Assembly: GCA_022509165.1 (NCBI GenBank)
Contig: JAFLTT010000012.1
Location: 1-64,000, forward strand
Source: Muribaculaceae bacterium
Lineage (GTDB): Bacteria > Bacteroidota > Bacteroidia > Bacteroidales > Muribaculaceae
Reading direction: 5' to 3'
Length of the DNA stretch: 64,000 nucleotides
Part shown: positions 24,999 to 51,205 of the stretch, piece by piece
Position numbering within the stretch: position 1 is the first letter of the stretch
How the letters are laid out: each line of letters opens with the position of its first letter
The notes under the pieces: generated by a model
The model's input: only the letters and a program-made list of their open reading frames with translations
Told to the model about the DNA's origin: nothing
Database searches by the model: none
Translations under genes and position numbers: made by a program

Positions 24999-25070
24999 GC
25001 TGACGGAGGGCCACAGGTGAACCTGGTGGCTCTGGCCTCCGGCCGACAAAAACCGAGGGTGCGAAAGGAG
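24999..25070 (+). repeat. REP-like repeat, copy D
   Basis: Copy D begins 17 bases after the RAYT stop codon with GCTGACGGAGGGCCACAGGT and runs through the same two hairpins to GACAAAAACCGAGGGTGCGA. It is in the same orientation as copies A, B and E. Confidence 0.85.
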
Positions 25071-25082
25071 AGGGGAAGGAAG

Positions 25083-25140
25083 GCTGACGAGGGGCCACAG
25101 GTAAACCTGGTGGCTCTGGCCTCCGGCCGACAAAAACCGA
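25083..25140 (+). repeat. REP-like repeat, copy E
   Basis: Copy E follows D by 12 bases and starts GCTGACGAGGGGCCACAGGT, matching copy A in its left half and copy D in its right half. The D-E spacing is close to the A-B spacing, so both sides of the RAYT gene carry a direct pair. Confidence 0.85.
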
Positions 25141-25188
25141 TGGCGGGAAGGAGAGGGCACGAAAGGGAGAGGAAAGGGTGAGGGGGGA

Positions 25189-26376
25189 TCAGGAGTTTTC
25201 GTAGATGTGGGTGAGGAGGCTGGTGTCGGTGGGGGTGAGGGTGAGGTCGCGGCGCGACATCACTCTTGAGGCTGTGTCGAGGAATTTCTTCATCGGGACT
25301 TTTGTGAAACCGCCACCGGGACTTCCTTCGCAGAAACAGGGTATGAAGGTGCGGGGGAATCCGGCGCCATGGAGGTTGACACCGACTCCGATTACGGTGG
25401 CTGTGTTGACCATGCAATTGACACCTATCTTGGAGTGGTCTCCCATGATGAGTCCGCAGAACTGCAGATTTGTTCGCATGAAAGAACGTGTGCGGTAGTT
25501 CCATACCCGAATCAGGGAGTAGTCGTTTTTAAGGTTGGATGCATTCGTGCCGGCACCGATGTTGCACCATTCGCCGATTATGGCGTTGCCGAGGTAACCG
25601 TCGTGCGCTTTGTTGCTGTATCCGAAAAATATGGTATTGCAGACCTCGCCTCCTACCTTGCAGTGGGGACCTATGGTGGTGGCTTCGTAGATCATGGCGC
25701 CCATCCTTACTTCGGCTTCCTGACAGATGGCGAACGGGCCGCGGATGCATGCTCCTTCAAGCACTTCGGCGTCTTTGCCGATGTATACGGGTCCGTCTGT
25801 GAGATTGATGGATGCACATTCTACCGTGGCTCCGGGTTCGATGAAGATGGAGTTGGCTTCAGTGTTTTCTTTGCTGACAATCAGTCGGATATGTGGTGGG
25901 ATCGGAGCTGACTGACGGTTGGCCGTGATCAGACTGAAATCTTTCTTTATTTCGTCGCCGTTTAGTAGGAAAAGGTCGAAGAGATAGTGGATTAGAGTGG
26001 GATTTTTGGCGGCGGAAATATTATGATAGTTTTTGGATAGGAAATCTGAGTAGGTACCGCGGAAGGCGAGGATTTGGTCAGGGTTTTGGTCGGAGAGTGC
26101 CTGACCAGTGGAGAGTGCCTGGATTTCTGCGGCAATTGCGCGGTCGGGAAGGAGATTACCTGCGATGAAGAGGGCTTCCTCATCGGGCTCGGGAGTGGAG
26201 CCAAATTTTTCCCTGAGATATTCCACCGGGAGGAAGTGGTAATCGCCGCCTATATAGTGGGGCCATTTTTCACTGATTGTTAGGATGCCGCATCTGAAAT
26301 CGGCGATAGGACGTGTGAAGCTTAGCGGGAGTAGGTTTTCGTGGGCTTCAATGGAATCGAAGAGGTAAATTTTCAC
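25189..26376 (-). CDS. GlmU-like sugar-1-phosphate nucleotidyltransferase / acyltransferase-type protein
   Basis: Read from the GTG at 26376 the product is about 395 residues and starts VKIYLFDS; a TTG at 26391 adds five residues but would leave almost no leader after the predicted promoter (26408-26415). The N-terminal half has a SFTRPIADFRCG block, characteristic of the Bacteroidota GlmU-like family. The second half (about residues 190-340) is a left-handed beta-helix made of hexapeptide repeats (such as VYIGKDAEVLEG and IIGEWCNIGAGT). Family knowledge suggests a UDP-N-acetylglucosamine-type pyrophosphorylase/acetyltransferase role in cell-wall precursor synthesis. The N-terminal pyrophosphorylase signature is not classical, so activity is uncertain. 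Its 3' end lies 48 bases from REP copy E. Confidence 0.78.
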   Translation of the reverse strand: MKIYLFDSIEAHENLLPLSFTRPIADFRCGILTISEKWPHYIGGDYHFLPVEYLREKFGSTPEPDEEALFIAGNLLPDRAIAAEIQALSTGQALSDQNPDQILAFRGTYSDFLSKNYHNISAAKNPTLIHYLFDLFLLNGDEIKKDFSLITANRQSAPIPPHIRLIVSKENTEANSIFIEPGATVECASINLTDGPVYIGKDAEVLEGACIRGPFAICQEAEVRMGAMIYEATTIGPHCKVGGEVCNTIFFGYSNKAHDGYLGNAIIGEWCNIGAGTNASNLKNDYSLIRVWNYRTRSFMRTNLQFCGLIMGDHSKIGVNCMVNTATVIGVGVNLHGAGFPRTFIPCFCEGSPGGGFTKVPMKKFLDTASRVMSRRDLTLTPTDTSLLTHIYENS

Positions 26377-26407
26377 GGTATGGAATCTCAAATTCGTTTA
26401 GGAGACA

Positions 26408-26415
26408 CAAAAGTA
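26408..26415 (-). promoter_or_regulatory. Probable promoter of the GlmU-like gene (-7 element)
   Basis: On the minus strand the site reads TACTTTTG, matching TAnnTTTG. No clear TTTG is found at the -33 distance. Transcription would begin near 26401, leaving about 25 bases before the GTG at 26376. Confidence 0.45.
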
Positions 26416-26480
26416 AGATAAATAGGGGAAAACTCAGTGTTAAAAAGAATTAACGAAGGTGATAGAAGACGGAGGGCCTG

Positions 26481-26580
26481 GAGTAACTAGGAGTGACTAG
26501 GAGGAACTAGGAGACACTAGGAGAAACTAGGAAGGACTAGGAGAATCTAGGAGTGACTGGGAGAAAATAGGAGGGGAGAG
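26481..26580 (+). repeat. 10-bp-period tandem array, GAGNNACTAG units
   Basis: Ten exact 10-base blocks run from 26481 to 26580. The first five match GAGNNACTAG and later ones drift (GAGAATCTAG, GAGTGACTGG, GAGAAAATAG, GAGGGGAGAG). The motif is the reverse complement of the one at 131-220. The array ends 25 bases before the -33 element of the rpsL promoter. Confidence 0.9.
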
Positions 26581-26605
26581 GGGGGAGAGAATAGGGCTGG
26601 TGGGA

Positions 26606-26637
26606 TTTGGATAAGAGGTTGATTTTTATTATCTTTG
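26606..26637 (+). promoter_or_regulatory. Promoter of the ribosomal supercluster
   Basis: TTTG (26606-26609), 20 bases, then TATCTTTG (26630-26637) fit the Bacteroidota consensus exactly. The start of transcription should be near 26645, giving a leader of about 215 bases ahead of rpsL. Confidence 0.75.
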
Positions 26638-26858
26638 CAAAAGTTTTGGGCCCCGAGAGCCTGGTGCCGGCACTAAATGACTGAGTGATAGTTGTTTAGT
26701 GGTGGTTTTGGTGTGTAGGCCAGTTGTAGTGATTCGGGAGTTGGAAAGTGTCCGGATTGCGGAAAAAGGGTGACGGGGTCAAAAAAATGAGTCGGGAATT
26801 TGTTTCCGGCGAAGAAAAAAGAGAATAAATTAATCATTAATAAACAAAGCGACAAAGA

Positions 26859-27242
26859 ATGCCAACTATTCAGCAATTAGTAAGAAAGGGCAGGGTAGCA
26901 CTTGAAGACAAGAGCAAGAGCCCGGCACTGGATTCATGTCCGCAGCGCAGAGGCGTATGTGTACGTGTGTACACCACTACCCCTAAGAAACCTAACTCAG
27001 CGATGAGAAAGGTGGCACGTGTGCGACTCACCAACGGCAAGGAGGTTAACTCCTATATACCAGGCGAAGGTCACAATCTGCAGGAGCACTCCATCGTAAT
27101 GGTGAGAGGCGGCAGGGTAAAGGACCTTCCGGGAGTACGTTACCACATCGTGAGAGGTACATTAGACACCGCCGGTGTGCAGGGCAGAACCCAGAGGCGC
27201 TCAAAATACGGTGCCAAGAGGCCTAAGGCAGCCAAGAAATAA
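26859..27242 (+). CDS. rpsL: 30S ribosomal protein S12
   Basis: The 127-residue protein is full length. It carries the [10 protein letters not shown] block (Lys43, Lys44) and the RVKDLPG block (Lys88), the positions at which streptomycin resistance changes occur; both are wild type here. S12 sits at the decoding centre of the small subunit. It is the first gene of the str-type cluster and is preceded by a long leader and a good promoter. Confidence 0.98.
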
Positions 27243-27422
27243 AATTCCGGAGGAGACATAGAGTCTTGAAAGGAATCGGATAAGCTGCCGAAAAGAAAAG
27301 AAAAATTAAAAAATAAAATCCCCGCGAGGGGAGGATGTGGTTGAGTAAACCGTAGAGGCGAGAGAGCCGAGAGCGACGGTTGAAGCGAATAAGAAGATCA
27401 CAGCCGAAAACATTAAACAAAA
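27243..27422 (+). promoter_or_regulatory. Structured rpsL-rpsG intercistronic region
   Basis: The 180-base gap is long for this compact cluster. It contains CCCC-GCGA-GGGG (27320-27331), a stem with a GNRA-type loop, and a second possible stem with ends ACCGT and ACGGT (about 27349-27380). In E. coli the same gap is the S7 autoregulatory target; a similar role here is inference. Confidence 0.45.
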
Positions 27423-27899
27423 ATGAGAAAAGCAAAGCCAAAGAAAAGGGTGATACTGCCCGATCCTGTGTTCCACGACGTAAGGGTGACAAAGTTTGTG
27501 AACCATCTCATGTACGACGGCAAGAAGAGCACAGCGTATACAATTTTCTACACGGCGTTGGAGACCGTGAAGGCAAAGATGCCTAATGAGGAGAGAAGCG
27601 CATTGGATATCTGGAAGAAAGCGCTCGAGAATATTACTCCTCAGGTGGAAGTGAAGAGCCGCCGTGTGGGCGGTGCCACATTCCAGGTGCCTACAGAGAT
27701 CAGGCCCGACCGCAAAGAATCCATATCAATGAAAAATCTCATCTCGTATGCCCGCAAGAGAGGCGGTAAGACCATGGCCGACAAGCTTGCAGCAGAAATC
27801 GTGGACGCATTTAACGACCAAGGCGGCGCCTTCAAGAGAAAAGAAGACATGCACCGTATGGCAGAAGCCAACCGCGCTTTCGCACATTTCAGATTCTAA
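27423..27899 (+). CDS. rpsG: 30S ribosomal protein S7
   Basis: The 158-residue protein matches the usual S7 length and starts MRKAKPKKR, with the conserved GGATFQVP and [16 protein letters not shown]-type segments. S7 starts assembly of the 30S head and contacts the E site. The gene lies 18 bases before fusA. The long gap before it may carry the autoregulatory site. Confidence 0.98.
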
Positions 27900-27917
27900 A
27901 TTGATATTCACATCAAA

Positions 27918-30041
27918 ATGGCAAAACACGAAGATCTTAATTTGACCCGTAATATCGGCATCATGGCTCACATCGATGCCGGCAAGACCACAACATCAGA
28001 GCGTATCCTCTTCTACACCGGCCTTACCCACAAGATAGGCGAGGTGCACGACGGAGCCGCCACAATGGACTGGATGGAGCAGGAGCAGGAGCGTGGTATC
28101 ACCATCACTTCAGCCGCCACCACCACATTCTGGAACTATAACGGGAACAAATATAAAATCAATCTTATCGACACTCCGGGACACGTAGACTTCACCGTAG
28201 AGGTGGAGAGGTCGTTGAGAGTGCTTGACGGAGCAGTGGCAGCCTTCTGTGCCGTGGGCGGTGTAGAACCGCAGAGCGAGACAGTATGGCGTCAGGCTGA
28301 CAAATACAATGTGCCGCGTATCGGATATGTAAACAAGATGGACCGCAGCGGCGCCAACTTCTATGAAGTGGTAAGGCAGGTGAAGGAAGTGCTCGGCGCT
28401 ACCCCGCTGCCTATCCAGATACCTATCGGGGCTGAAGAGTCGTTCAAGGGTGTGGTAGACCTCGTGACCATGCAGGCTATCTTCTGGCACGACGAGACCA
28501 TGGGAGCAGAATACACAGTGGCTGAAATTCCTGCCAACCTCAAAGATGAGGCAGAGGAATGGCGCGACAAGATGCTCGAGACCTTGGCCGAGTATGACGA
28601 GACCCTGATGGAGAAATATTTCGACGATCCCTCCACAATCACAGTAGAGGAAATCAAGGCAGCCATCAGAAAGGCAACCCTCTCAATGGCCGTTAACCCG
28701 ATGATCTGCGGTAGTTCATTCAAGAACAAGGGTGTACAGACGCTGCTTGACGCTGTATGTGCCTATCTTCCGAGTCCGGAGGATGCCGGTATCGTTGAGG
28801 GTCACGCAGTAGATGATCCAGACCAGATCGAGACAAGAGAACCGAGTCCTGAAGCACCTATGTGTTCATTGGCATTCAAGATTGCCACTGACCCGTATGT
28901 AGGCCGTCTCTGCTTCTTCCGCGTATATTCAGGCGAGATGAAGAGCGGAAGCTACGTGCTCAACACCCGTTCCGGCAAGAAAGAGAGAGTGTCACGTCTG
29001 TTCCAGATGCACTCCAACAAGCAGAATCCCAAAGAGGTGATAGGTTGCGGTGATATCGGTGCCGGTGTAGGTTTCAAGGATATCCGTACAGGTGACACCC
29101 TTTGCGACGAGAACGCACCAATCGTGCTCGAATCTATGGAATTCCCGGATCCTGTGATTGGTATCGCAGTAGAGCCCAAGACCCAGAAAGATCTCGACAA
29201 ACTTGGTGTAGGTCTGCAGAAACTTGCTGAGGAAGACCCGACCTTCAGGGTAGAGACCAATGAAGAGACCGGACAGACCGTGATCAGCGGTATGGGTGAG
29301 CTTCACCTCGACATCATCATCGACCGCTTGAAGAGAGAATTCAAGGTAGAATGTAACCAGGGACGTCCGCAGGTAACATATAAAGAAGCCATCACCAAAC
29401 CGGTAGAGCTCAGAGAGGTATTCAAGAAGCAGACCGGTGGTCGCGGTAAGTTTGCCGACATCATCGTAAGAATCGAACCCGTAGATGAAGGATTCGAAGG
29501 CAGCCTGCAGTTTGTAGACGAAGTGAAGGGCGGTAACGTGCCCAAAGAATACATCCCGAGCGTGCAGAAAGGTTTCCAGACAGCGATGAAGAACGGTGTA
29601 TTGGCCGGTTATCCTGTAGAGAAACTGAAAGTGACCTTGCTCGACGGAAGTTTCCACCCGGTAGACTCCGACCAGCTTTCATTTGAGCTCTGTGCCATCC
29701 AGGCATTCAAGAAGGGCAGCGAGAAGGCCGGTCCGGTACTCATGGAACCGATCATGAAGATCGAGGTAGTGACCCCGGAAGAGAGCATGGGTGACGTGAT
29801 AGGCGACTTGAACAAGCGTCGCGGACAGGTAGAGGGAATGGAGACAAGCCGCAGCGGCGCAAGAATCGTGAAGGCTAAGGCTCCTCTGGCTGAGATGTTC
29901 GGATACGTGACAGCGTTGCGTACCATCACCTCCGGTAGAGCTACCAGCACCATGTCGTTCAGCCACTACGCAGAGGTAAGCAATTCGATTGCAAAGAATG
30001 TGCTCACCGAAGTGCAGGGCAGAGTAGATTTACTGAAATAA
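27918..30041 (+). CDS. fusA: Elongation factor G
   Basis: The 707-residue GTPase drives translocation on the ribosome. All GTPase motifs are intact: AHIDAGKTT (17-25), RGITI (59-63), DTPGHVDF (85-92, with catalytic His89) and NKMD near 139. Domains II-V follow at normal length. This is the regular translocase, in contrast to the EF-G paralog at 55.7 kb, which has lost the RGITI motif and the histidine. It is followed 16 bases later by rpsJ; no tuf gene intervenes, as is usual in Bacteroidota. Confidence 0.98.
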
Positions 30042-30057
30042 AAATGAGAAACACCAT

Positions 30058-30363
30058 ATGAATCAGAAAATCAGAATCAAACTTAAGTCTTACGATCATA
30101 ATCTGGTCGATAAGTCGGCGGAAAAGATCGTGAAGACAGTTAAGTCAACCGGTGCGGTAGTAAGTGGTCCGATACCCTTGCCCACTCACAAGAGAATCTT
30201 TACGGTAAACCGCAGTACTTTCGTCAACAAGAAGAGCCGTGAACAGTTTCAGCTGTCGAGTTATCAGAGGCTCATCGACATCTACAGCAGCACAACAAAG
30301 ACTGTGGATGCCTTGATGAAACTTGAACTCCCGAGCGGCGTAGACGTGAGTATAAAGGTGTGA
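30058..30363 (+). CDS. rpsJ: 30S ribosomal protein S10
   Basis: The 101-residue protein has the standard S10 length, with the [14 protein letters not shown] and [11 protein letters not shown] segments. It opens the S10 gene block. Directly after its stop codon a 7-bp-period array begins, followed by a foreign-looking four-helix-bundle gene, so rpsJ and rplC are 538 bases apart instead of the usual short distance. Confidence 0.97.
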
Positions 30364-30368
30364 GGTAT

Positions 30369-30438
30369 CGTTTATCGTTAAGCGTTAATCGTTTATCGTT
30401 AATTGTTAAGCGTTAAGCGTTAATCGTTAATCGTTTAT
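30369..30438 (+). repeat. 7-bp-period array, CGTTAAT-type heptamers
   Basis: Ten heptamers run without a gap: variants CGTTTAT, CGTTAAG, CGTTAAT and one TGTTAAG. All fit CGTTWAK/T. The array starts five bases after the rpsJ stop and ends four bases before the start codon of the four-helix-bundle gene. Confidence 0.92.
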
Positions 30439-30442
30439 TGGA

Positions 30443-30817
30443 ATGGCGAGGAAACAGGGTTTTACAGACTTACAGGTTTGGCGCAAGGCTGTGAAAATTT
30501 TGAACCCTGTATATAATGTGATAAAAACCTTTCCATCCGAAGAAAGACATGCCTTAGGAGAGCAATTAAGAAGAAGTTCAGTTTCAATTTCATCTAATAT
30601 TGCAGAAGGGCAAGCCCGTGGAACCAACAAGGCCTTTATCAACCACCTGAATATCGCGAAGGGTTCTTCAGCTGAAGTACAATCACAATTATACGTAGCA
30701 GTAGAATTGGGGTATACTACTTTGGAGATTATAGATCCCATAGAGGAAGAATTGGTGGGAATAGACATGATGCTAACAAAGCTGATTAACTCGATAGACA
30801 GAAAAGACGGTTTTTAA
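30443..30817 (+). CDS. Four-helix-bundle protein (S23/IVS type) inserted in the S10 operon
   Basis: The 124-residue protein starts MARKQGFTDLQVWRKA and has the family signature LRRSSVSISSNIAEG (about residues 45-59), followed by helices with NHLNIAKGSSAEVQSQL. The family is known from open frames inside 23S rRNA intervening sequences (hence the old name S23) and is structurally related to the Avd accessory protein of diversity-generating retroelements; its function when free-standing is unknown. Here it lies in the direction of transcription between rpsJ and rplC, with heptamer arrays on both sides. The composition (A+T-rich, few G+C third positions) differs from the ribosomal genes around it, which suggests insertion. 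It is not a component of the ribosome as far as is known. Confidence 0.85.
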   Translation: MARKQGFTDLQVWRKAVKILNPVYNVIKTFPSEERHALGEQLRRSSVSISSNIAEGQARGTNKAFINHLNIAKGSSAEVQSQLYVAVELGYTTLEIIDPIEEELVGIDMMLTKLINSIDRKDGF

Positions 30818-30852
30818 CGATAAAAAAGAAAAGAAGAAGATTCTTCAAAGCG

Positions 30853-30885
30853 AAAAACGAAAATCGAAATACGAATTACGTAATA
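30853..30885 (+). repeat. Second 7-bp-period array, CGAAANN-type heptamers
   Basis: After the four-helix-bundle gene the sequence runs CGAAAAA, CGAAAAT, CGAAATA, CGAATTA and CGTAA, again with a 7-base period and CG at the start of each unit. The upstream array has the same CGWWWWN form. It ends about 16 bases before the rplC start codon. Confidence 0.7.
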
Positions 30886-30901
30886 TTTAATAACACAAGA
30901 A

Positions 30902-31519
30902 ATGCCAGGATTATTAGGAAAGAAAATCGGAATGACATCCGTTTTCAGTGCCGACGGAAAGAATATTCCGTGCACTGTTATCGAAGTTGGTCCTTGTGTT
31001 GTCACCCAGTTGAAGACTGTGGAGAAGGATGGCTATGAAGCCGTGCAGGTAGGTTTCCAGGAGAAGAAAGAGAAACATACCAACAAGCCGGAAGCCGGAC
31101 ACTTCGCCAAAGCCGGGGTGGCACCTCAGAGACACTTGGCCGAGTTCAAATCATTCGAGACCAAGCCGGCGCTTGGCGACACACTTACAGTAGACCTCTT
31201 CACTGAAGGTGGCTTCGTAGACGTGATCGGCACAAGCAAAGGAAAAGGTTTCCAGGGCGTAGTTAAGCGCCATGGTTTCGGCGGCGTGGGTCAGCAGACA
31301 CACGGTCAGCACAACCGCCTGAGGGCACCGGGTTCAATCGGTGCATGTTCTTACCCTGCAAAAGTGTTCAAAGGTCTGCGTATGGCCGGCCATATGGGCT
31401 GTGACAGGGTGACAGTACAAAACCTCCAGGTGATAAAAGTGCTCCCCGAGCACAACCTCTTAGTGATTAAAGGGTCGGTTCCCGGCCACAAAGGTTCAAT
31501 AGTAATGGTCGAGAAATAA
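30902..31519 (+). CDS. rplC: 50S ribosomal protein L3
   Basis: The 205-residue protein is of normal length, with the [10 protein letters not shown] opening and the [20 protein letters not shown]-type loop that reaches the peptidyl transferase centre. Its stop codon overlaps the rplD start by one base (TAATG), so the two are translationally coupled. It stands directly downstream of the inserted four-helix-bundle gene. Confidence 0.97.
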
Positions 31520-32154
31520 TGGAAGCAGCAGTATACAATATCAAAGGAGAAGATACCGGAAGAAAGGTAGAACTCAAAGACGAAGTGTTTGCACGCGACC
31601 TGACCGAAGGGAACGCCGACCACACACTGTATCTTGACATCAAGCAATATCTGGGCAACCAGCGTCAGGGTACCCACAAGAGTAAGGAAAGAAGCGAAGT
31701 GAGCGGTTCAACCCGCAAGCTCGGACGTCAGAAAGGTGGCGGCGGTGCCCGTAGGGGTGACATCAATAGCCCGCTTCTCAAGGGTGGAGGCCGCGTATTT
31801 GGTCCGAGACCTCGCGACTACCGCACCAAGCTCAACAAGAAGATGAAACAGCTTGCCCGCAAGATAGCTCTAACGAGCAAGACCGGCAAAGGAGCTGTGA
31901 TAGTGATTGAGAATTTCCAGTTTGACAAGCCTTGCACAAAAGACTGGATGCAGATAGCCAAGAACTTCAAGGTGGCCGACAAGAAGACCTTGCTGGTGAC
32001 CAACGGACTTGACAACAATCTGCTTCTGAGTGTAAGGAATGTGCCCAATGCCATGATGATGCAGGCAATCGACCTGAATGCCTATAGTGTGCTCAACACC
32101 GACACCATCCTCATGACCGAAGGCAGCGTGGAACTGATAAATGAAAACTTCTAA
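31519..32154 (+). CDS. rplD: 50S ribosomal protein L4
   Basis: The 211-residue protein has the long basic loop (TRKLGRQKGGGGARRGD) that enters the exit tunnel. In proteobacteria L4 represses the S10 operon; no such leader structure was recognised here. The start overlaps the rplC stop by one base, and rplW follows after 18 bases with a GGAGGA sequence in between. Confidence 0.97.
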   Translation: MEAAVYNIKGEDTGRKVELKDEVFARDLTEGNADHTLYLDIKQYLGNQRQGTHKSKERSEVSGSTRKLGRQKGGGGARRGDINSPLLKGGGRVFGPRPRDYRTKLNKKMKQLARKIALTSKTGKGAVIVIENFQFDKPCTKDWMQIAKNFKVADKKTLLVTNGLDNNLLLSVRNVPNAMMMQAIDLNAYSVLNTDTILMTEGSVELINENF

Positions 32155-32172
32155 CCACAGGAGGACTTAGAG

Positions 32173-32463
32173 ATGGATATTGAAATCAAACCAATCGTAA
32201 CCGAGAAGGCCAACGCCTACAGCGACAAGCAGAACTGCTACACATTCGCCGTAAGCCCGGATGCCAACAAGTTCCAGATAAAGGACCTTGTGGAGAAGAT
32301 GTATAATGTGCGCGTAGAGAAAGTGAATACAGCACTCTATGCGGGCAAGAGAAAACAGCGCTGGACCAAAGGGGGTCTGATCAAAGGTCAGAGACCCAGT
32401 TTCAAGAAGGCATACGTGACCGTAGCCGAGGGCCAGAAGATAGACTACTTCAGTAATATTTAA
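32173..32463 (+). CDS. rplW: 50S ribosomal protein L23
   Basis: The 96-residue protein has the PIVTEKAN opening, the [11 protein letters not shown] segment and the basic KRQ/KRWTKGG region of L23, which lies at the exit of the ribosomal tunnel and docks trigger factor and the signal recognition particle. A good GGAGGA site precedes it, and rplB starts five bases after its stop. Confidence 0.96.
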
Positions 32464-32468
32464 ATACA

Positions 32469-33338
32469 ATGGCAGTAAAGAAATTCAAGCCCGTAACACC
32501 CGGGCAAAGACACAAGATTATTGGTGTGTTCCGCAACGAGGTCGCAGTAAAGAACGGCGACGGCACTGCCTCTGTGAAGAAAGTATCGAAGATCACACCA
32601 GAAAAATCTCTTACGGTGGGCAAGAAGAGCACCGGCGGCCGCAACACCAGCGGTCAGTTGAGCGTACGCTACAGAGGCGGCGGTCATAAGAGGAAATTGC
32701 GTCTGATCGACTTCAAGAGGAACAAAGACGGAGTGCCCGCAGTAGTAAAGAGCATCGAGTACGATCCCAACAGGAGCGCCCGCATCGCACTTCTTTACTA
32801 CAAGGATGGCGACAAGGCATACATCGTGGCCCCTAACGGCCTTGAAGTAGGCCAGACCGTGATGAGCGGCAGCGACGTAGCACCCGAAGTAGGCAACACC
32901 TTGCCTTTAGCCAACATACCCGTGGGTACGTTGATCCACTGCATCGAGCTTCGTCCGGGCCAGGGAGCCTGCATGGCACGTTCAGCCGGCACCTTCGCCC
33001 AGCTTACCTCAAGAGAAGGCGACTATGCTATTATCAAACTCCCTTCAGGCGAGACCCGTAAAGTGCTTCTGAGCTGCAGGGCCACAGTAGGCGTAGTAGG
33101 TAACTCAGAACATTCGCTCGAACAGAGCGGTAAGGCCGGCCGTAGCCGCTGGCTTGGCAGAAGGCCCCACAACCGTGGTGTAGTAATGAACCCCCACGAT
33201 CACCCGATGGGTGGTGGTGAAGGCCGCCAGAGCGGTGGACACCCGAGGTCGCGTACAGGCTTGTATGCCAAGGGCTTGAAGACCAGAGCTCCGAAGAAAC
33301 ATTCTTCGAAGTATATCATCGAGAGAAGGAAGAAATAA
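32469..33338 (+). CDS. rplB: 50S ribosomal protein L2
   Basis: The 289-residue protein is slightly longer than most L2 proteins because of a longer N-terminal region (residues 12-45). The conserved core includes [21 protein letters not shown], where the histidine near the peptidyl transferase centre lies. It ends in a basic tail (YIIERRKK). Confidence 0.97.
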
Positions 33339-33363
33339 TCTGAAAATAGCATAAACACAAGAT

Positions 33364-33633
33364 ATGAGTCGTTCACTTAAGAAAGGGCCGTTTATCAGCG
33401 TAAAGCTCGAGAAGAAGGTAGCCGACATGGAGGCCAGCGGCAAGAAGAGCGTGATCAAGACGTGGAGCCGTGCCTCAATGATTTCTCCCGACTTCGTGGG
33501 TCATACATTCGCTGTGCACAACGGTAATAAATTCATACCGGTTTACGTTACAGAAAATATGGTAGGACACAAACTCGGAGAGTTTGCGCCCACTCGTACG
33601 TTCCGTGGCCATGCCGGCAACAAGAAGAAATAA
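33364..33633 (+). CDS. rpsS: 30S ribosomal protein S19
   Basis: The 89-residue protein opens [11 protein letters not shown] and has the conserved [13 protein letters not shown] and [16 protein letters not shown] segments. S19 sits in the head of the 30S subunit next to S13. The gap to rplV is 76 bases and holds nothing recognisable. Confidence 0.97.
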
Positions 33634-33709
33634 TGGCGTCGAAACTTTAATGAATAAAGGATTGAAGTTTTTAGCCTGCTTAAACCAATAAAGAAAAGAA
33701 AAGAAAAAA

Positions 33710-34108
33710 ATGGGTGTAAGAAAAAGACAAGCAGCCGACGCCATCAAAGAAGCTCGCAAGAGCCAATATTTCGCAAAGCTGCATAATGTGCCCTCATCTC
33801 CGCGCAAGATGCGCCTGGTGGTGGATATGATCCGCGGCCAGGAGGCTTTCAAGGCCCTGGGTATCTTGAAATTCTCCAACAAGGAGGCGGCCAGAAGGGT
33901 AGAGAAGCTTCTCAGGAGCGCTATCGCCAACTGGGAACAGAAAAACGAGAGAAAGGCAGAGGCCGACGAACTGTATGTAAAGACAGTGTTTGTGGACTGT
34001 GCCCCGATGCTCAAGAGGTTGCGTCCGGCTCCGCAGGGCCGCGGCTACAGAATCCGCAAGAGGAGCAACCATGTGACATTGTTTGTAGACACAAAAACCG
34101 GTAAATAA
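33710..34108 (+). CDS. rplV: 50S ribosomal protein L22
   Basis: The 132-residue protein has the [14 protein letters not shown] block and the C-terminal hairpin [16 protein letters not shown] that lines the exit tunnel and is a known site of macrolide resistance changes. No insertion or deletion is seen in the hairpin. It is followed by rpsC after nine bases. Confidence 0.96.
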
Positions 34109-34117
34109 GCAAGTAAG

Positions 34118-34849
34118 ATGGGACAGAAAGTTAATCCAATCAGCAACCGTCTGGGAGTGATCAGAGGTTGGGACTCCAACTGGTTCGGTGGAAAGAAATA
34201 CGGTGAGACACTTCTCGAAGACTCAGTGATCCGTAAATTCCTCCGCACCCATCTTGCCAAGGCAAGTGTGTCAAAAATCATTATCGAGAGGACACTGAAA
34301 AACGTGACCGTTACGATCTGCACAAGCCGTCCGGGTATGGTGATCGGCAAAGGCGGAAAAGACGTAGACGTTTTGAAAGATCAGCTCAAGAAACTCACTG
34401 ACAAAGATATCCAGATCAACATCTACGAGATCAAGCGTCCGGAACTGGATGCTGAGATCGTGGCCACCAACATTGCACGCCAGATAGAGAACAAGGTAGC
34501 TTACCGCCGTGCCGTAAAGATGGCTATCGCCTCTACTATGAGGATGGGAGCCGAGGGCATCAAGGTGCAGGTGAGCGGTCGTCTGAACGGCGCCGAAATG
34601 GCAAGAAGCGAGATGTTTAAAGAGGGCAGAACTCCTCTGCATACACTTCGTGCCGATATCGACTATGCAATGGTGGAAGCCTTGACCAAGGTGGGTATCA
34701 TCGGTATCAAGGTATGGATCTGCCGCGGTGAGATCTACGGTAAGAAAGAACTGACCCCTTCATACGCAGTAGGTCAGAAAGAGGCAGGAAGGCCCCAGGG
34801 CGGCGGCAGGAAAGGCGGCTTCAGGGCAAAGAAGAGCAACAACCGTTAA
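34118..34849 (+). CDS. rpsC: 30S ribosomal protein S3
   Basis: The 243-residue protein opens MGQKVNPI and contains the KH-domain loop VIGKGGKD and the C-terminal domain with [10 protein letters not shown] glycine/arginine/lysine-rich tail ([17 protein letters not shown]) extends beyond the core. S3 forms part of the mRNA entry site. Confidence 0.97.
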
Positions 34850-34863
34850 TTTGAAATTGAAGC

Positions 34864-35295
34864 ATGTTACAACCAAAGAGAACCAAATACCGCCGTTCGC
34901 AAAAGGGACGCATGAAGGGTGAGGCCCAGAGAGGTCACCAGCTTGCGTTCGGCTCATTCGGCATCAAGACACTTGAGAGCAAATGGATCACCGGGCGCCA
35001 GATCGAGGCAGCCCGTGTGGCCGTGACCAGGCACATGCAGCGTCAGGGCCAGATATGGATCAGGATCTTCCCGGACAAACCAATCACCAAGAAACCGGCC
35101 GAGGTGCGTATGGGTAAAGGTAAAGGTAACCCGGAAGGATTCGTAGCGCCCGTGACTCCGGGCCGTATCCTTATAGAAGTGGAGGGAGTGCCCTTTGATG
35201 TGGCAAAAGAGGCCCTTCGCTTAGCGGCACAGAAGCTGCCGGTGACCACAAAATTTGTGGTGCGCCGTGACTATGATGCATCGCAGAATGCATAA
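34864..35295 (+). CDS. rplP: 50S ribosomal protein L16
   Basis: The 143-residue protein opens [11 protein letters not shown] and has the [14 protein letters not shown] block near the A-site tRNA. The length is normal. It lies 14 bases after rpsC and 26 bases before rpmC. Confidence 0.97.
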
Positions 35296-35321
35296 CGCAT
35301 AAAACCAGAGATAAAAAACCT

Positions 35322-35546
35322 ATGAAAAAGGAAGAAATCAAGGAATTAAGCATTCCGGAACTGCGCGCCCAGATAGAGGCGAGCGAGAAGGCTTATCGTG
35401 AATTGAAAGTAGCGCACGCGATCTCTCCCATAGACAATCCCTCGAAGATCACCAAAGATCGGAAGGACATTGCCCGCTTGAAGACTGTGTTGCGCCAGAA
35501 GGAGCTCGAAGCCCAGAAGGCTGAGGCTGCTGCTGAAAACAAATGA
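35322..35546 (+). CDS. rpmC: 50S ribosomal protein L29
   Basis: The 74-residue helical protein begins [10 protein letters not shown] and has the [18 protein letters not shown] end, slightly longer than minimal L29 proteins. L29 borders the tunnel exit together with L23. The first residues overlap no other gene; rpsQ follows after 20 bases. Confidence 0.95.
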
Positions 35547-35566
35547 TTCTTTATTTTAAGAGAAAG

Positions 35567-35827
35567 ATGGAAGAAAAACGTCATTTGAGAAAAGAAAGGA
35601 TCGGCGTCGTTTCAAGCAATAAATGCGACAAGACGATCACAGTGGAGATCAAGTGGAAGGAAAAACACCCGATCTACGGAAAATTTGTCAACAAGACAAA
35701 GAAATATCATGCCCACGACGAGAAGAATGAATGCTCAGTGGGAGATACAGTAAGGCTCATGGAGACAAGGCCATTGAGCAAGACCAAGAGATGGAGACTT
35801 GTTGAAATAATCGAAAAAGTGAAGTAA
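35567..35827 (+). CDS. rpsQ: 30S ribosomal protein S17
   Basis: The ATG at 35567 is chosen because it gives the conserved opening [15 protein letters not shown] after an AGAGAAAG stretch; an in-frame start 24 bases upstream (35543) would overlap the end of rpmC and add eight atypical residues. The 86-residue protein has the OB-fold blocks [12 protein letters not shown] and [13 protein letters not shown] of S17. Confidence 0.94.
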
Positions 35828-35829
35828 CC

Positions 35830-36195
35830 ATGATACAGACCGAATCCAGACTCAACGTAGCAGACAACAGCGGAGCCAAGGAGGTTCTCTGTATCCATGT
35901 GCTCGGCGGCACAGGCCGCAGATATGCCTCTGTGGGCGACATCATCGTGGTGACAGTGAAGAGCACCATCCCGTCGAGCGACGTAAAAAAAGGCACAGTA
36001 TCGAAGGCAGTGGTGGTACGCACCAAGAAAGAGGTGCGCAGACCCGACGGAAGTTATATCCGCTTCGACGACAATGCCTGCGTGTTGCTTAACAATGCCG
36101 GTGAGATTAGAGGCACCCGTATCTTCGGACCGGTGGCCCGCGAACTCCGTAACACCAACATGAAGATTGTTTCGCTCGCGCCGGAAGTTCTTTAA
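35830..36195 (+). CDS. rplN: 50S ribosomal protein L14
   Basis: The 121-residue protein opens [18 protein letters not shown] and ends with [11 protein letters not shown]. All conserved blocks ([30 protein letters not shown]) are present. It starts two bases after the rpsQ stop, so the two are probably coupled. Confidence 0.98.
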
Positions 36196-36215
36196 ACAAT
36201 TAAAAAGAAGAAGAA

Positions 36216-36536
36216 ATGGCAAAATTCCATATCAAGAAGGGCGACATCGTGTATGTAAACGCCGGCGACGACAAAGGGAAGACCGGCAGAGTGCTCGAGA
36301 TGCTCGTGAAGAAACACAAGGCACTTGTGGAAGGCGTGAACATCGTGACCAAGAGCATGAAGCCGAATGCAAAGCATCCCCAGGGCGGACTCGTGAAGAT
36401 GGAGGCTCCGGTGGACATCTCCAACCTCAATGTGCTTGACCCGAAGACCGGGAAACCGACCAGAATTGGCCGCAGGCGCAATGATGCAGGTAAATTAGTA
36501 AGATATTCAAAGAAATCAGGAGAGGAGATTAAGTGA
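36216..36536 (+). CDS. rplX: 50S ribosomal protein L24
   Basis: The 106-residue protein begins with a KOW motif ([20 protein letters not shown], residues 5-24). L24 starts assembly of the large subunit. Its TGA stop overlaps the rplE start by one base (TGATG). Confidence 0.97.
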
Positions 36537-37084
36537 TGAGCAATACTACACTTGGAAAAGAATATAAGGAGAAGATAGTACCCGAGCTCCAGAAGGAATT
36601 CGGCTACACCACAGTGATGCAGGTGCCCAAACTTGAGAAGATCGTGATCAACCAGGGACTCGGCGGTGCCACCCAGGACAAGAAGATCATCGAGACAGCT
36701 CTCAATGAACTCACAGCAATCACCGGCCAGAAAGCAGTGCCCACACTCTCCAAGAAAGACATCTCCAATTTCAAACTGAGGAAGAAAATGCCGATCGGCG
36801 CCATGGTGACCCTTCGCCACGACAAGATGTATGAATTCCTTGAAAGACTCGTGAAAGTGGCTTTGCCGCGAATCAGGGACTTCAAGGGAATCAACAACAA
36901 ACTTGACGGCCGCGGCAACTATACGCTGGGTGTGACCGAGCAGATTATCTTCCCGGAGATAAATATCGACAATGTGCCGAAGCTGCAGGGCATGAACATC
37001 ACGTTCGTGACTTCCGCACCCACCGACGAGGAGGGATATGCGCTTCTGAAGAAATTCGGCCTTCCATTCAAACGTGAAAACTAA
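36536..37084 (+). CDS. rplE: 50S ribosomal protein L5
   Basis: The ATG at 36536 overlaps the rplX stop by one base and follows a GGAGAGGAG site; a GTG three bases upstream is in frame but less likely. The 182-residue protein has the [21 protein letters not shown] and FPEINIDNV segments of L5, the 5S rRNA-binding protein of the central protuberance. Confidence 0.96.
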
Positions 37085-37093
37085 AAGATATCT

Positions 37094-37396
37094 ATGGCAA
37101 AAGAATCAATGAAGGCGCGCGAAGTTAAGCGTCAGAAGCTTGTGGCCAAATATGCAGAGAAGAAGGCAGCCTTGAAGAAGGCAGCGTTGGCCGATGCCGA
37201 GGGCAATATCGATTACGAAGCCCTCAAGAAGCTTCAGAAGCTTCCCAAGAATGCGTCGAAAGTACGCCTGCACAACCGCTGCTCGATGACCGGCAGACCT
37301 AAAGGCTATATGAGGCAGTTTGGCATCTCCAGGATTCAATTCAGAGAGATGGCATCAGCCGGCCTTATTCCGGGCGTAAAGAAAGCAAGCTGGTAA
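37094..37396 (+). CDS. rpsN: 30S ribosomal protein S14 (zinc-free type)
   Basis: The 100-residue protein is the long form of S14. It has one cysteine (in [11 protein letters not shown]) and lacks the CxxC pairs of the short zinc-binding form, so it belongs to the zinc-independent class. The C-terminal [13 protein letters not shown] and VKKASW are intact. A 137-base gap follows before rpsH. Confidence 0.96.
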
Positions 37397-37533
37397 AGAA
37401 ATGAAGAAACCGATGGATGCAGGCCGTGAATCGGATAGGTGAGCGGCCCGCTTCCACGAACTCCTTGCAGAGAAATACGAGAGAGAATTAAATATTGTTC
37501 GGAAAATCTGAATCAATTTAACAATCACAAAAA

Positions 37534-37932
37534 ATGACTGATCCAATTGCAGATTATTTGACCAGGCTCAGGAATGCCATTCGTGCAGGACACAGAGTGG
37601 TGGACATTCCCGGGTCGAAAATGAAAAGGGAGATAACCAAGATACTGTATGACCAGGGTTATATCCTCAATTACAAATTTGTAGAAGGTCCGCATCCTTC
37701 AGGCACAATCAAGATAGCCCTGAAGTATGATCCGGTGGACCATGTAAGTGCCATCAAGAACCTCCACAGGGTAAGCCGTCCGGGTCTGCGCCAATACACA
37801 GGCTACAAAGATATGCCCAGAGTGCTCAACGGTCTCGGTATAGCTATCCTCACCACTCCACAGGGTGTGATGACCAATAAGGAGGCTAAAGAACGTAAGA
37901 TTGGTGGTGAAGTATTGTGTTACGTTTATTAA
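37534..37932 (+). CDS. rpsH: 30S ribosomal protein S8
   Basis: The 132-residue protein opens MTDPIADYLTRLRNA and ends with GGEVLCYVY. S8 binds helix 21 of 16S rRNA and in E. coli represses the spc operon. The 137-base gap upstream has no recognised gene; whether it holds an S8 target was not resolved. Confidence 0.97.
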   Translation: MTDPIADYLTRLRNAIRAGHRVVDIPGSKMKREITKILYDQGYILNYKFVEGPHPSGTIKIALKYDPVDHVSAIKNLHRVSRPGLRQYTGYKDMPRVLNGLGIAILTTPQGVMTNKEAKERKIGGEVLCYVY

Positions 37933-37947
37933 TGAGGAGGTATCGAT

Positions 37948-38502
37948 ATGTCAAGAATAGGAAAATCACCGATTGAGATACCTGCAGGCGTAACCGTACA
38001 GGTAAAAGACCATGTAGTGACCGTAAAGGGTCCGAAAGGAGAACTAAGCCAGGAAATCAACCCTGCCATAACAGTGGAACAGGAAGGCAATCACCTTGAG
38101 GTGAAAAGACCTGACGACAGCCGTGAAAACCGCGCGATGCACGGTCTTTACAGGGCTCTGATCCAGAATATGGTGACAGGCGTGAGCCAGGGCTACAAGA
38201 AAGAGATGGAACTTGTGGGCGTAGGTTACAGAGCCAATGCCACAGGTCAGGTGCTCGACCTTTCATTAGGCTATTCACATGCTATTTATATCAAACTTCC
38301 GCCGGAGGTGAAGGTGGAGGCCAAGACAGAGAGAAACAAGAATCCGCTCATCATCCTGGAAAGCGCCGACAAGCAGCTTCTGGGTCAGGTGTGTGCCAAG
38401 ATAAGGTCTCTGCGCAAGCCCGAACCTTACAAAGGAAAAGGTATTAAGTTTGTGGGCGAAGTTATCCGCAGGAAGTCGGGTAAGAGTGCCAACGCTAAAT
38501 AA
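37948..38502 (+). CDS. rplF: 50S ribosomal protein L6
   Basis: The 184-residue protein opens [12 protein letters not shown] and has the VGVGYRA and [12 protein letters not shown] blocks typical of L6, near the factor-binding site. A GAGGAGG site precedes the start at the usual distance. Confidence 0.98.
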
Positions 38503-38519
38503 TTAAACTAAGGAAGACT

Positions 38520-38861
38520 ATGGTATCCAAAATAGCAAGAAGAAATAAAATCAAGACAAGGATCCGCGGCAAGATTTCCGGCACACCGGAAAGGCCCCGT
38601 ATGACTGTTTTCCGCAGCAACAAAGGGATCTATGTACAGATAATCGACGATTTGGCCGGTCATACACTGGTGGCATCTTCATCTAAGGGACTCGAAGGAG
38701 GCACCAAGAGTGAAGTGGCAGCCAAAGTAGGCGCCGATATCGCAAAGAAAGCGATGGATAAAGGTATCACACAGGTAGTGTTTGACCGTAACGGTTACCT
38801 TTTCCATGGCAGAGTAAAATCATTGGCTGATGCAGCACGCGAAGCCGGTCTTAAATTTTAA
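38520..38861 (+). CDS. rplR: 50S ribosomal protein L18
   Basis: The 113-residue protein has the [15 protein letters not shown] and [13 protein letters not shown] segments of L18, which binds 5S rRNA with L5. Length is normal and spacing to both neighbours is short. Confidence 0.97.
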
Positions 38862-38869
38862 AGAAAGTC

Positions 38870-39388
38870 ATGGTAAAGAAAAATAATAGAGTAAAGTCGA
38901 CCAACGACTTGGAATTGAAAGACCGTCTGGTAGCGATCAACCGCGTGACCAAGGTTACCAAGGGTGGACGTGCATTCAGTTTTGCAGCCATCGTGGTAGT
39001 AGGAAATGAAGACGGTGTGATAGGCTGGGGCCTTGGCAAAGCCAATGAAGTGACAGCTGCCATCGCCAAGGGCGTGGAAGCAGCCAAGAAGAATCTGATC
39101 AGAGTACCGGTGCACAACGGCACTATCCCTCACGAGCAGAGCGCAAAATTCGGCGGAAGCCGCATATTCCTGAAGCCTGCTTCTGAAGGTACCGGAGTGA
39201 AGGCCGGTGGTGCGATGCGTGCAGTGCTTGAAAGCGCCGGCATCAAAGACGTGCTTGCAAAGAGCAAAGGAAGCTCGAACCCTCACAACCTTGTGAAGGC
39301 TACTATCGAAGCTCTGAGCGAAATGAGAAGCCCGCAGGAGATAGCAAAGAACCGTGGTATTTCGGTGGAAAAAGTGTTTAAAGGATAA
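38870..39388 (+). CDS. rpsE: 30S ribosomal protein S5
   Basis: The 172-residue protein has the [16 protein letters not shown] block (site of spectinomycin resistance changes in other bacteria) and [10 protein letters not shown]. It ends with EKVFKG. rpmD starts ten bases after its stop. Confidence 0.97.
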
Positions 39389-39398
39389 AATTTCAGAG

Positions 39399-39578
39399 AT
39401 GGCACAGATAGCAATCAAACAGATAAAGAGCCGCATCAACTGCCCCAAGAAGCAGAAACTGACACTTGATGCGCTTGGCTTGAGAAAACTCAACCACACG
39501 GTGGTACACGAGGATTGCCCCACCATCAGAGGTATGGTGAAGGCAGTGCATCATCTTGTAGAAGTGACAAAAATTTAA
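39399..39578 (+). CDS. rpmD: 50S ribosomal protein L30
   Basis: The ATG at 39399 gives a 59-residue L30 starting MAQIAIKQIKSRIN; open sequence upstream in this frame lies inside rpsE and is not part of the gene. The LDALGLRKLNHTVVHED and RGMVKAVHHLV segments are typical. Confidence 0.96.
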   Translation: MAQIAIKQIKSRINCPKKQKLTLDALGLRKLNHTVVHEDCPTIRGMVKAVHHLVEVTKI

Positions 39579-39592
39579 ATACTTAGAAAGAC

Positions 39593-40039
39593 ATGGAACT
39601 ACATAATCTCAAACCCGCACCCGGCAGCAATAAGAAGAACAAGAGGGTGGGCCGCGGACCGGGCGCCGGCACCGGCGGTACATCCACCAGAGGTCATAAG
39701 GGCGCCAAGAGCCGTTCAGGCTACAGCCGTAAGATAGGTTTCGAGGGCGGCCAGATGCCATTGCAGCGTAGGGTGCCGAAATTCGGATTCAACAATATCA
39801 ACCGCAAGGAATACAAAGCCATCAACCTTGATGCACTTGAGGCTCTGGCTGAAGCCCAGAACCTTACCAAGATCACAGTAGACGACATGCGTGCTGCAGG
39901 ATTGGTGCCCAAGAAATGTCTTGTGAAGGTACTGGCAAATGGCAATGTGACCAAAGCCATCGAGGTGCAGGCCGATGCATTCTCAAAGAAGGCAGAAGAA
40001 GCTATCACAGCAGCAGGCGGCAGCGTCTCGAAAAAATAA
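39593..40039 (+). CDS. rplO: 50S ribosomal protein L15
   Basis: The 148-residue protein has the glycine-rich N-terminal extension (RVGRGPGAGTGGTSTRGHKG) of L15 that threads into 23S rRNA, and the EGGQMPLQRRVPKFGF block. It lies six bases before secY. Confidence 0.97.
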   Translation: MELHNLKPAPGSNKKNKRVGRGPGAGTGGTSTRGHKGAKSRSGYSRKIGFEGGQMPLQRRVPKFGFNNINRKEYKAINLDALEALAEAQNLTKITVDDMRAAGLVPKKCLVKVLANGNVTKAIEVQADAFSKKAEEAITAAGGSVSKK

Positions 40040-51047: not shown

Positions 51048-51050
51048 GTT

Positions 51051-51205
51051 TAAACAATAAGTATTAAACAGTAAACAATAAGTAAGTTACTTAAGTAATA
51101 AGTATACTTAAACAATAAGTATTAAACAATAAACAATAAGTAAGTTACTTAAATATAAGTGGGTTACTTAAGTAATAAGTATTGAACAGTAAATAATAAG
51201 TAGAG
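51051..51205 (+). repeat. Third 7-bp-period array, TAAACAA/TAAGTAA-type heptamers
   Basis: Heptamers such as TAAACAA, TAAGTAT, TAAACAG and TAAGTAA run in register, interrupted by the palindrome TTACTTAAGTAA (51087-51098, again near 51157). A block of about 56 bases starting at 51051 is repeated with few changes from 51109. The array fills the gap after the BAX-inhibitor-like gene. Confidence 0.85.

Follow-up and report, generated by a model that had tools for sequence, protein, structure and literature searches.

The window, the 64-kb stretch of DNA analysed here, carries a small gene flanked by two repeat arrays between the ribosomal protein genes rpsJ and rplC. The gap between these genes spans 538 bases (30364-30901), from the end of the rpsJ stop codon at 30363 to the rplC start at 30902, and all of its features lie on the plus strand. 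The upstream host gene rpsJ (S10; 30058-30363, an ORF of 101 aa) is followed, 5 nt past its stop codon, by a left array of ten CGTTWAT-type heptamers (30369-30438), recognised from the sequence, by TRF and by a period scan. The four-helix-bundle gene, a member of PF05635/TIGR02436 encoding 124 aa, occupies 30443-30817 including its stop codon (30443-30814 without it) and was identified from its ORF, profile matches and an AlphaFold2 model. A right array of five CGAAANN-type heptamers, found in the sequence and by the period scan and inverted relative to the left type, follows at 30851-30885. The downstream host gene rplC (L3; 30902-31519, an ORF of 205 aa) starts 16 nt past this array. The first-pass annotation had described the 538 bases, ten heptamers, 124-residue gene and shorter CGAAANN array in this gap, and all of these were borne out; it recorded two arrays but did not notice that they mirror each other.

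The left array consists of nine CGTTNAN units and one TGTTAAG, all in register, and was reported by TRF as 30367-30435 with period 7 and 9.9 copies. The right array reads CGAAAAA CGAAAAT CGAAATA CGAATTA CGTAATA. The two are thus mutually inverted, with CGTT.. on the left and ..AACG on the right. They were the only period-7 runs in the 64-kb window at the scan threshold, and three shuffles produced none. An Rfam motif search of the S10 region (window 25000-40000) gave no match up to an E-value of 1. Elsewhere in the window, weaker AATAAAC-type heptamers are nested in a 58-bp period at 51050-51202, where TRF reports them under longer periods. Two period-10 arrays of the form CTAGGAGNNA, at 148-218 and 26476-26573, are reverse complements of each other and constitute a repeat family separate from the heptamers.

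The window protein matched PF05635 with an E-value of 1.2e-33 and 116 bits (curated cut-off 33.8) and TIGR02436 with 2.2e-33 and 114.8 bits (cut-off 24). PF05635 and bAvd were its only Pfam matches, with none to the RAYT family, and no enzyme or catalytic domain or transposase family was found among its profile matches. AlphaFold2 predicted a helical bundle, with a mean pLDDT of 97.9 for the protein's residues in the alignment. In Foldseek the model resembled 2gsc (TM 0.94), 2rld (TM up to 0.82) and the Avd structure 4dwl (TM 0.82 at E 0.02); the solved relatives 2gsc and 2rld contain five chains each. The protein therefore has the same fold as Avd of diversity-generating retroelements (DGRs), a resemblance of PF05635 already noted (PMC10053308). 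It differs from Avd in scoring far above the PF05635 cut-off while falling below those of the Avd equivalog (22.1 bits against 80) and bAvd. Five residues, Q36, S43, N47, E50 and E73, are invariant in 28 aligned proteins.

We compared the same site in relatives by searching for rpsJ-rplC DNA in 61 genomes (the window's own included), of which 55 matched. The gap measured 48-297 nt in the 24 same-genus relatives in which it was readable and 19-38 nt in four relatives from other families. The two genes are therefore not tightly adjacent in this genus, and the statement in the first-pass annotation that they normally almost abut does not hold here. All readable relative gaps are shorter than the 375-nt gene, with room for it in none of the 24 same-genus relatives, so the site is not occupied throughout the group. 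By eye, five same-genus gaps (L026, L030, L037, L040 and L044) have in common a GAAGCCTCTTG...GCTTC stem that may be a ribosomal-protein leader and lies immediately ahead of rplC, and many other gaps contain G+C-rich hairpins.

When 111 same-genus genomes (own included) were searched with the protein, a single clear orthologue, 75% identical, was found in genome G120; the next-best protein was 47% identical. The G120 orthologue occupies the same rpsJ-rplC site. On its right is a scored CGATAAA-type array, and on its left a CGTTTTT-like run below the score. Between the two species, each left arm resembles the other's inverted right arm (0.39 and 0.32) more than the right arm read directly (0.04 and 0.16). 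By fusA identity, G120 (84.8%) and the gene-free G008 (85.2%) stand at much the same distance from the window genome, and gene loss and gene gain are therefore indistinguishable at this site. The window gene and its orthologue differ with a dN of 0.19 and a dS that was not estimable; the corresponding dN and dS were 0.06 and 1.7 for the host gene rpsJ and 0.02 and 1.3 for fusA. From these values we read the four-helix-bundle gene as being under purifying selection. G120 also has a second, unrelated heptamer array, of CCAAGTG type, between fusA and rpsJ (L091).

Repeat arrays accompany most PF05635 genes in the genus. The window's own genome has two such genes, each with arrays on both sides. 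Across the genus there were 77 matches at E <= 2.7e-20, of which 71 loci were examined and six left out (G112:C18, G076:C133, G102:C45, G030:C16, G013:C8 and G115:C9). They gave 72 distinct rows, the broken gene L105 counting as two, and 63 rows had 300 nt on both sides. With a flank length of 300 nt and an array score cut-off of 12, both chosen by us, an array was found upstream in 49 of the 63 rows and downstream in 43; 54 rows had one on at least one side, 38 had both, and nine lacked a scored array. The same measure scored 26 of 348 distal segments of those loci and none of 126 shuffled flanks. Seven-base repeats beside other members of the family, for which the first-pass annotation proposed a test, are thus in strong excess. 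Left and right periods were equal in all 38 doubly flanked rows (mostly 7, some 8 or 9), and in 34 of them the right array matched the left better in reverse complement than in direct orientation. Three exceptions were of direct type (L081, L099 and L103, two with a self-complementary ACGT core). The one tie was the window copy, whose arms are equally alike in inverted and direct comparison (0.14 each) and only weakly complementary.

The mirrored architecture extends to other taxa. From GTDB we took the best 80 of at least 582 confirmed relatives, found with patterns of one subclass, nine of which repeat same-genus loci. By record title these 80 include members of Bacteroidota, Bacillota, Proteobacteria, Planctomycetota and Treponema, and each of the five groups has one or more copies with mirrored arrays on both sides. 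IMG/VR contributed 22 loci, and ten of 41 plasmid records, most of them cyanobacterial, were read; among 50,697 phage records, one query protein gave no gene match. Domain matches shorter than 70 residues and identical proteins were excluded from the counts that follow, and proteins at least 98% identical from later comparisons as well. In the same-genus set, 61 copies had both flanks; 53 of these had an array on either side and 37 on both, 33 inverted and 3 direct. The corresponding numbers were 68, 51, 27, 25 and 2 for GTDB, 18, 15, 5, 4 and 1 for viral loci, and 9, 8, 6, 6 and 0 for plasmids. A scored array was absent from 17 of the 68 GTDB copies. We asked of the array-free copies whether they are rRNA intervening sequences (IVSs), and found no rRNA match in the 20 checked of 22 (L251 and L253 were excluded).

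Proteins less than 70% identical to one another defined an independent set of 88 copies with arrays, 48 of them with both. The period agreed between left and right in all 48, while the unit itself varied among copies. Inverted overlap reached 0.3 in 43 of the 48 and direct overlap in 4; comparisons across copies reached it in 65 of 2256. Inverted orientation of the arms is thus the rule for the PF05635 family, with a weak match in the window copy. G exceeded C in 68 of 76 left arrays and C exceeded G in 50 of 60 right arrays, whereas the remaining flank sequence had more G than C in 55 of 88 copies upstream and in 40 of 88 downstream. This skew means that the G-richer strand of the arrays usually runs inward from both ends. 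The protein clade does not appear to set the period at 7, 8 or 9, as only 4 of 17 non-7 copies agreed with their nearest neighbour, a number reached in 119 of 2000 shuffles.

Units and proteins go together even at unrelated sites. In pairs of copies with non-homologous outer flanks, mean unit similarity climbed with protein identity, from 0.054 below 35% to 0.058 at 35-45%, 0.072 at 45-55%, 0.108 at 55-65%, 0.228 at 65-75% (141 pairs) and 0.516 at 75-98% (17 pairs). It was at least 0.3 in 14 of these last 17. The Mantel correlation over 111 copies was 0.169, and none of 1000 permutations was as high. In alignments of eleven pairs, DNA homology among L227, L234 and L242, which are Bacteroidales copies at three sites, stopped at or within about 25 nt of the outer array edges, and in seven other pairs it was mostly restricted to the gene plus portions of the arrays. 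The alignment of L098 and L109 extends into the flanks, placing these two at one site. Several loci have simply been inherited, among them one site common to six species and the window's only orthologue at its own site. No transposition or excision event was seen among the compared copies. At the six-species site (to which L085 was assigned on its right flank alone), protein identity is 89-97% among the pairs listed, and the units differ. The arrays therefore evolve fast, mostly in step on both sides. The suggestion that array and gene form one unit, made initially from the window alone, is well supported by the array excess, the mirroring, the link between unit and protein, and the homology that ends near the array edges.

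The position of the copies relative to their neighbours was studied using mechanical ORFs of at least 100 codons, callable for 69 of the 88 independent copies. Both neighbours were co-directional with the gene in 54 of the 69 and both opposite to it in 8; the other 7 were mixed. The left array's outer edge lay a median of 0 nt from the upstream stop codon (36 of 54 within -10 to +20), and that of the right array a median of 6 nt from the downstream ORF start (30 of 41 within -20 to +30). The window copy conforms to this stop-to-start pattern. Other examples lie between cas6 and cas4, between an iron-sulfur assembly gene and sufB, and between genes for an AAA ATPase and a ParB-family protein; a Nostoc copy on the strand opposite both neighbours is a counter-example. 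Short operon spacers alone would bring the array edges near stop and start, but the orientation bias of 54 to 8 is not accounted for in this way. The first-pass annotation had proposed insertion into highly expressed operons. Operon junctions are indeed where most copies lie, and these are of many kinds.

One further idea, that arrays serve as stop-codon buffers because 7 is not a multiple of 3, was unsupported at the left end, where 47 of 76 sense units contained a stop against a shuffled mean of 43.1. There were small excesses of stop codons in right sense units (27 of 60; shuffled mean 18.5, maximum 26) and in left antisense units (35 of 76; shuffled mean 21.7, maximum 30), for which a common TTAG-like motif is the candidate cause.

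Arrays also occur without the gene. The own genome contains, in 464 kb, 17 period-7 runs compared with 0-3 for each other period from 5 to 12. Gene-less mirrored arrays were found in G014, G075, G118, G130 and G504 and in the own genome (e.g. L073:17590-17658). Some are mirrored pairs around a short loop, such as L287 in G014 with a loop of 22 nt, which by our reading of the sequence lies between a stop and a start codon. PF05635-associated units thus occur, as REPINs do, as dispersed gene-less inverted repeat pairs. In most of the 111 same-genus genomes, the dimers of any one unit were either near-absent or numbered in the tens to hundreds, with few intermediate cases; in some genomes there were hundreds, mostly away from the PF05635 gene. 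At least ten dimers were present in 5/5 genomes with a gene of that unit and 15/106 others for AATKCAT (p 1.2e-4), 4/4 and 5/107 for TTAAGRG (p 2.1e-5), and 2/2 and 6/109 for CGTTWAT (p 0.0046). In these tests the cut-off of ten was picked after the counts were seen, overlapping dimers inflate the numbers, kinship among genomes is ignored, and five of the 111 genomes (G126-G129 and G132) lay outside the PF05635 screen. No gene of the unit was detected in 15 of the 20 AATKCAT-rich genomes, which speaks against the arrays depending strictly on the gene. These include G078 with 377 dimers, G081 with 353, and G067 with 85 dimers and no PF05635 match at all; the three assemblies are 74-86% complete.

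A gene-less repeat also led to a gene. A GGGAATC trimer search of 369 genomes of the class of G135 (Gammaproteobacteria, the genome of L212) gave one match, G504. This genome, chosen solely for its GGGAATC arrays, had one PF05635 match, covering profile positions 1-64 of 106, in a gene apparently broken by a frame shift. The gene is flanked by GGGAATC on the left side and by GATTCCC on the right, a single case, and lies between what we take to be accB and accC. G504 also contains a gene-less mirrored GGGAATC pair (L312).

Taken together, these results suggest that the window feature is probably (at a rough probability of 0.6) a copy of a widespread element composed of a left array, a PF05635 gene and an inverted right array, for which mobility and repeat binding are inferred. 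The architecture and its recurrence, the stop-to-start fit, units common to copies at unrelated sites, gene-less arrays and conservation of the protein are all observed. They are best read as a class of element resembling REPIN/RAYT, lacking a recognisable recombinase and presumed mobile. The outer array edges would be the ends of the element. The co-transcribed four-helix-bundle protein, perhaps a five-chain assembly as in its two solved relatives, would bind the repeats and promote their spread or upkeep. Gene-less arrays would be non-autonomous or decayed derivatives, standing to the element as REPINs do to RAYTs. Slippage may alter the number and sequence of units, and copying between the mirrored arms may keep these alike. 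Placement from stop to start would make insertion tolerable and supply host transcription to the gene.

Autoregulation offers a different account, in which the protein would attach to its own repeats, as mRNA or DNA, and adjust the expression of both itself and the next operon gene, the arrays being putative operators. It would fit arrays that adjoin the gene and the next start codon, units that track the protein and the apparent purifying selection on the gene. We nevertheless consider it unlikely, because the host operons are unrelated (S10, cas6-cas4, ATPase/ParB, iron-sulfur assembly), because some genomes have their hundreds of dimers mostly far from the gene, and because an operator needs neither mirrored arms nor lineage-specific units.

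We regard as rather less probable the possibility that the arrays pair in mRNA and loop out the gene, juxtaposing the upstream stop and downstream start to keep translational coupling, akin to an rRNA IVS. In its favour, most copies have complementary arms whose outer edges fall at stop and start, and RNase III excision of an IVS from 23S rRNA has been reported (PMC4990558). However, pairing showed no preference for the sense strand (24 sense against 23 antisense, of 48). The minimum free energy fold of the window copy has no arm-arm pairs (expected number 7.0), and 39 of 300 shuffles pair its arms equally well. Short operon spacers suffice to place the edges near stop and start.

It is more doubtful still that the arrays arise passively when replication slips and switches template at quasi-palindromes, with the gene a non-binding passenger. 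The rapid turnover of units at the six-species site is what such a process would give, but arrays of this kind are rarer elsewhere (the 26 of 348 control segments), units track the protein even where sites are unrelated, and PF05635 genes show this architecture in several phyla. A CRISPR-like or defence-linked role is highly improbable: a CRISPR survey names a 23S rRNA IVP in a figure legend (PMC10910872) and one copy lies between cas6 and cas4, but the units are 7-9 nt long and contiguous, lack the unique spacers of CRISPR repeats and are mirrored around a single gene, and cas6-cas4 is a single case among operon junctions of unrelated kinds.

The preferred reading, a presumably mobile element of array, gene and inverted array, has its closest kin in the IVSs of 23S rRNA, whose S23/IVP ORF belongs to the same family, PF05635. 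Such IVSs have complementary ends. An IVS with an S23 ORF has been described as a selfish element (PMC4990558). The element described here differs in lying between protein genes (rpsJ and rplC in the window), in having tandem arrays as its ends and in its dispersed gene-less copies. The closest logic is that of REPIN/RAYT, in which inverted doublets of short extragenic repeats are each tied to their own gene type (PMC3116915), as here. The RAYT is a tyrosine transposase, whereas PF05635 proteins are four-helix bundles with no matched catalytic domain, and the units here are tandem repeats of 7-9 nt.

Heptamer repeats have been reported before. Rehm et al. (2015) reported 70 and 75 convergent pairs of GGGAATC heptamers in two Xanthomonas genomes; in Xanthomonas and Nostoc, GGGAATC or GGGGA(C/T)T repeats lie most often between aligned ORFs (PMC4692102). 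These are heptamer arrays in convergent pairs, as here; they are not known to us to have been tied to a gene, the main text does not contain the terms 'four helix' or 'S23', and the gene link is seen here in the one case of G504. MacGregor (2015) reported TAACTGA direct repeats at start codons in Beggiatoaceae, cyanobacteria and Bacteroidetes, including one upstream of an L3 gene, and suggested that a repeat-binding protein could be the mobile element (PMC4679880). Heptamers at start codons are common to both studies, but no gene flanked by mirrored arrays is known to us from that paper, and 'S23' and 'four-helix' are absent from its main text. In the open-access literature, which leaves most subscription papers and bioRxiv preprints outside, we found no paper linking PF05635 to heptamer arrays.

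We know of no role for free-standing S23/IVP proteins, nor of a source for the heptamer repeats of cyanobacteria, xanthomonads and Bacteroidota. The element would join these two orphans and may account for the long-known unexplained repeats. Should the protein prove responsible for the arrays, the element would represent a mobile class that works in a new way, because the unit has no recognisable transposase or reverse transcriptase. More tentatively, PF05635 genes with mirrored heptamer arrays may form a recombinase-less mobile class in many phyla. Orphan heptamers (GGGAATC in Xanthomonas, those of Nostoc and other cyanobacteria, and TAACTGA) could be its gene-less progeny, and each protein lineage could have its own fast-changing unit.

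Several minor observations concern the composition of individual arrays. In the own genome, L003 and L008-L021 are gene-less composites of a CGTTWAT array, a CGCAGGATAATACTATTCTAC-like spacer and a TTGTTTA array. This composite occurs at many intergenic-looking sites, and L002 resembles a gene-bearing version of it. The AATKCAT arrays L283-L286 of G075 have a common non-repeat tail resembling TTGGCTTCGCGAC. The TTAAGRG arrays of G110 contain, at several sites (L275-L280), a miniature element about 105 bp long whose terminal inverted repeats measure 16 bp (AATGTCRCTAAATTAG), as if these arrays were its target.
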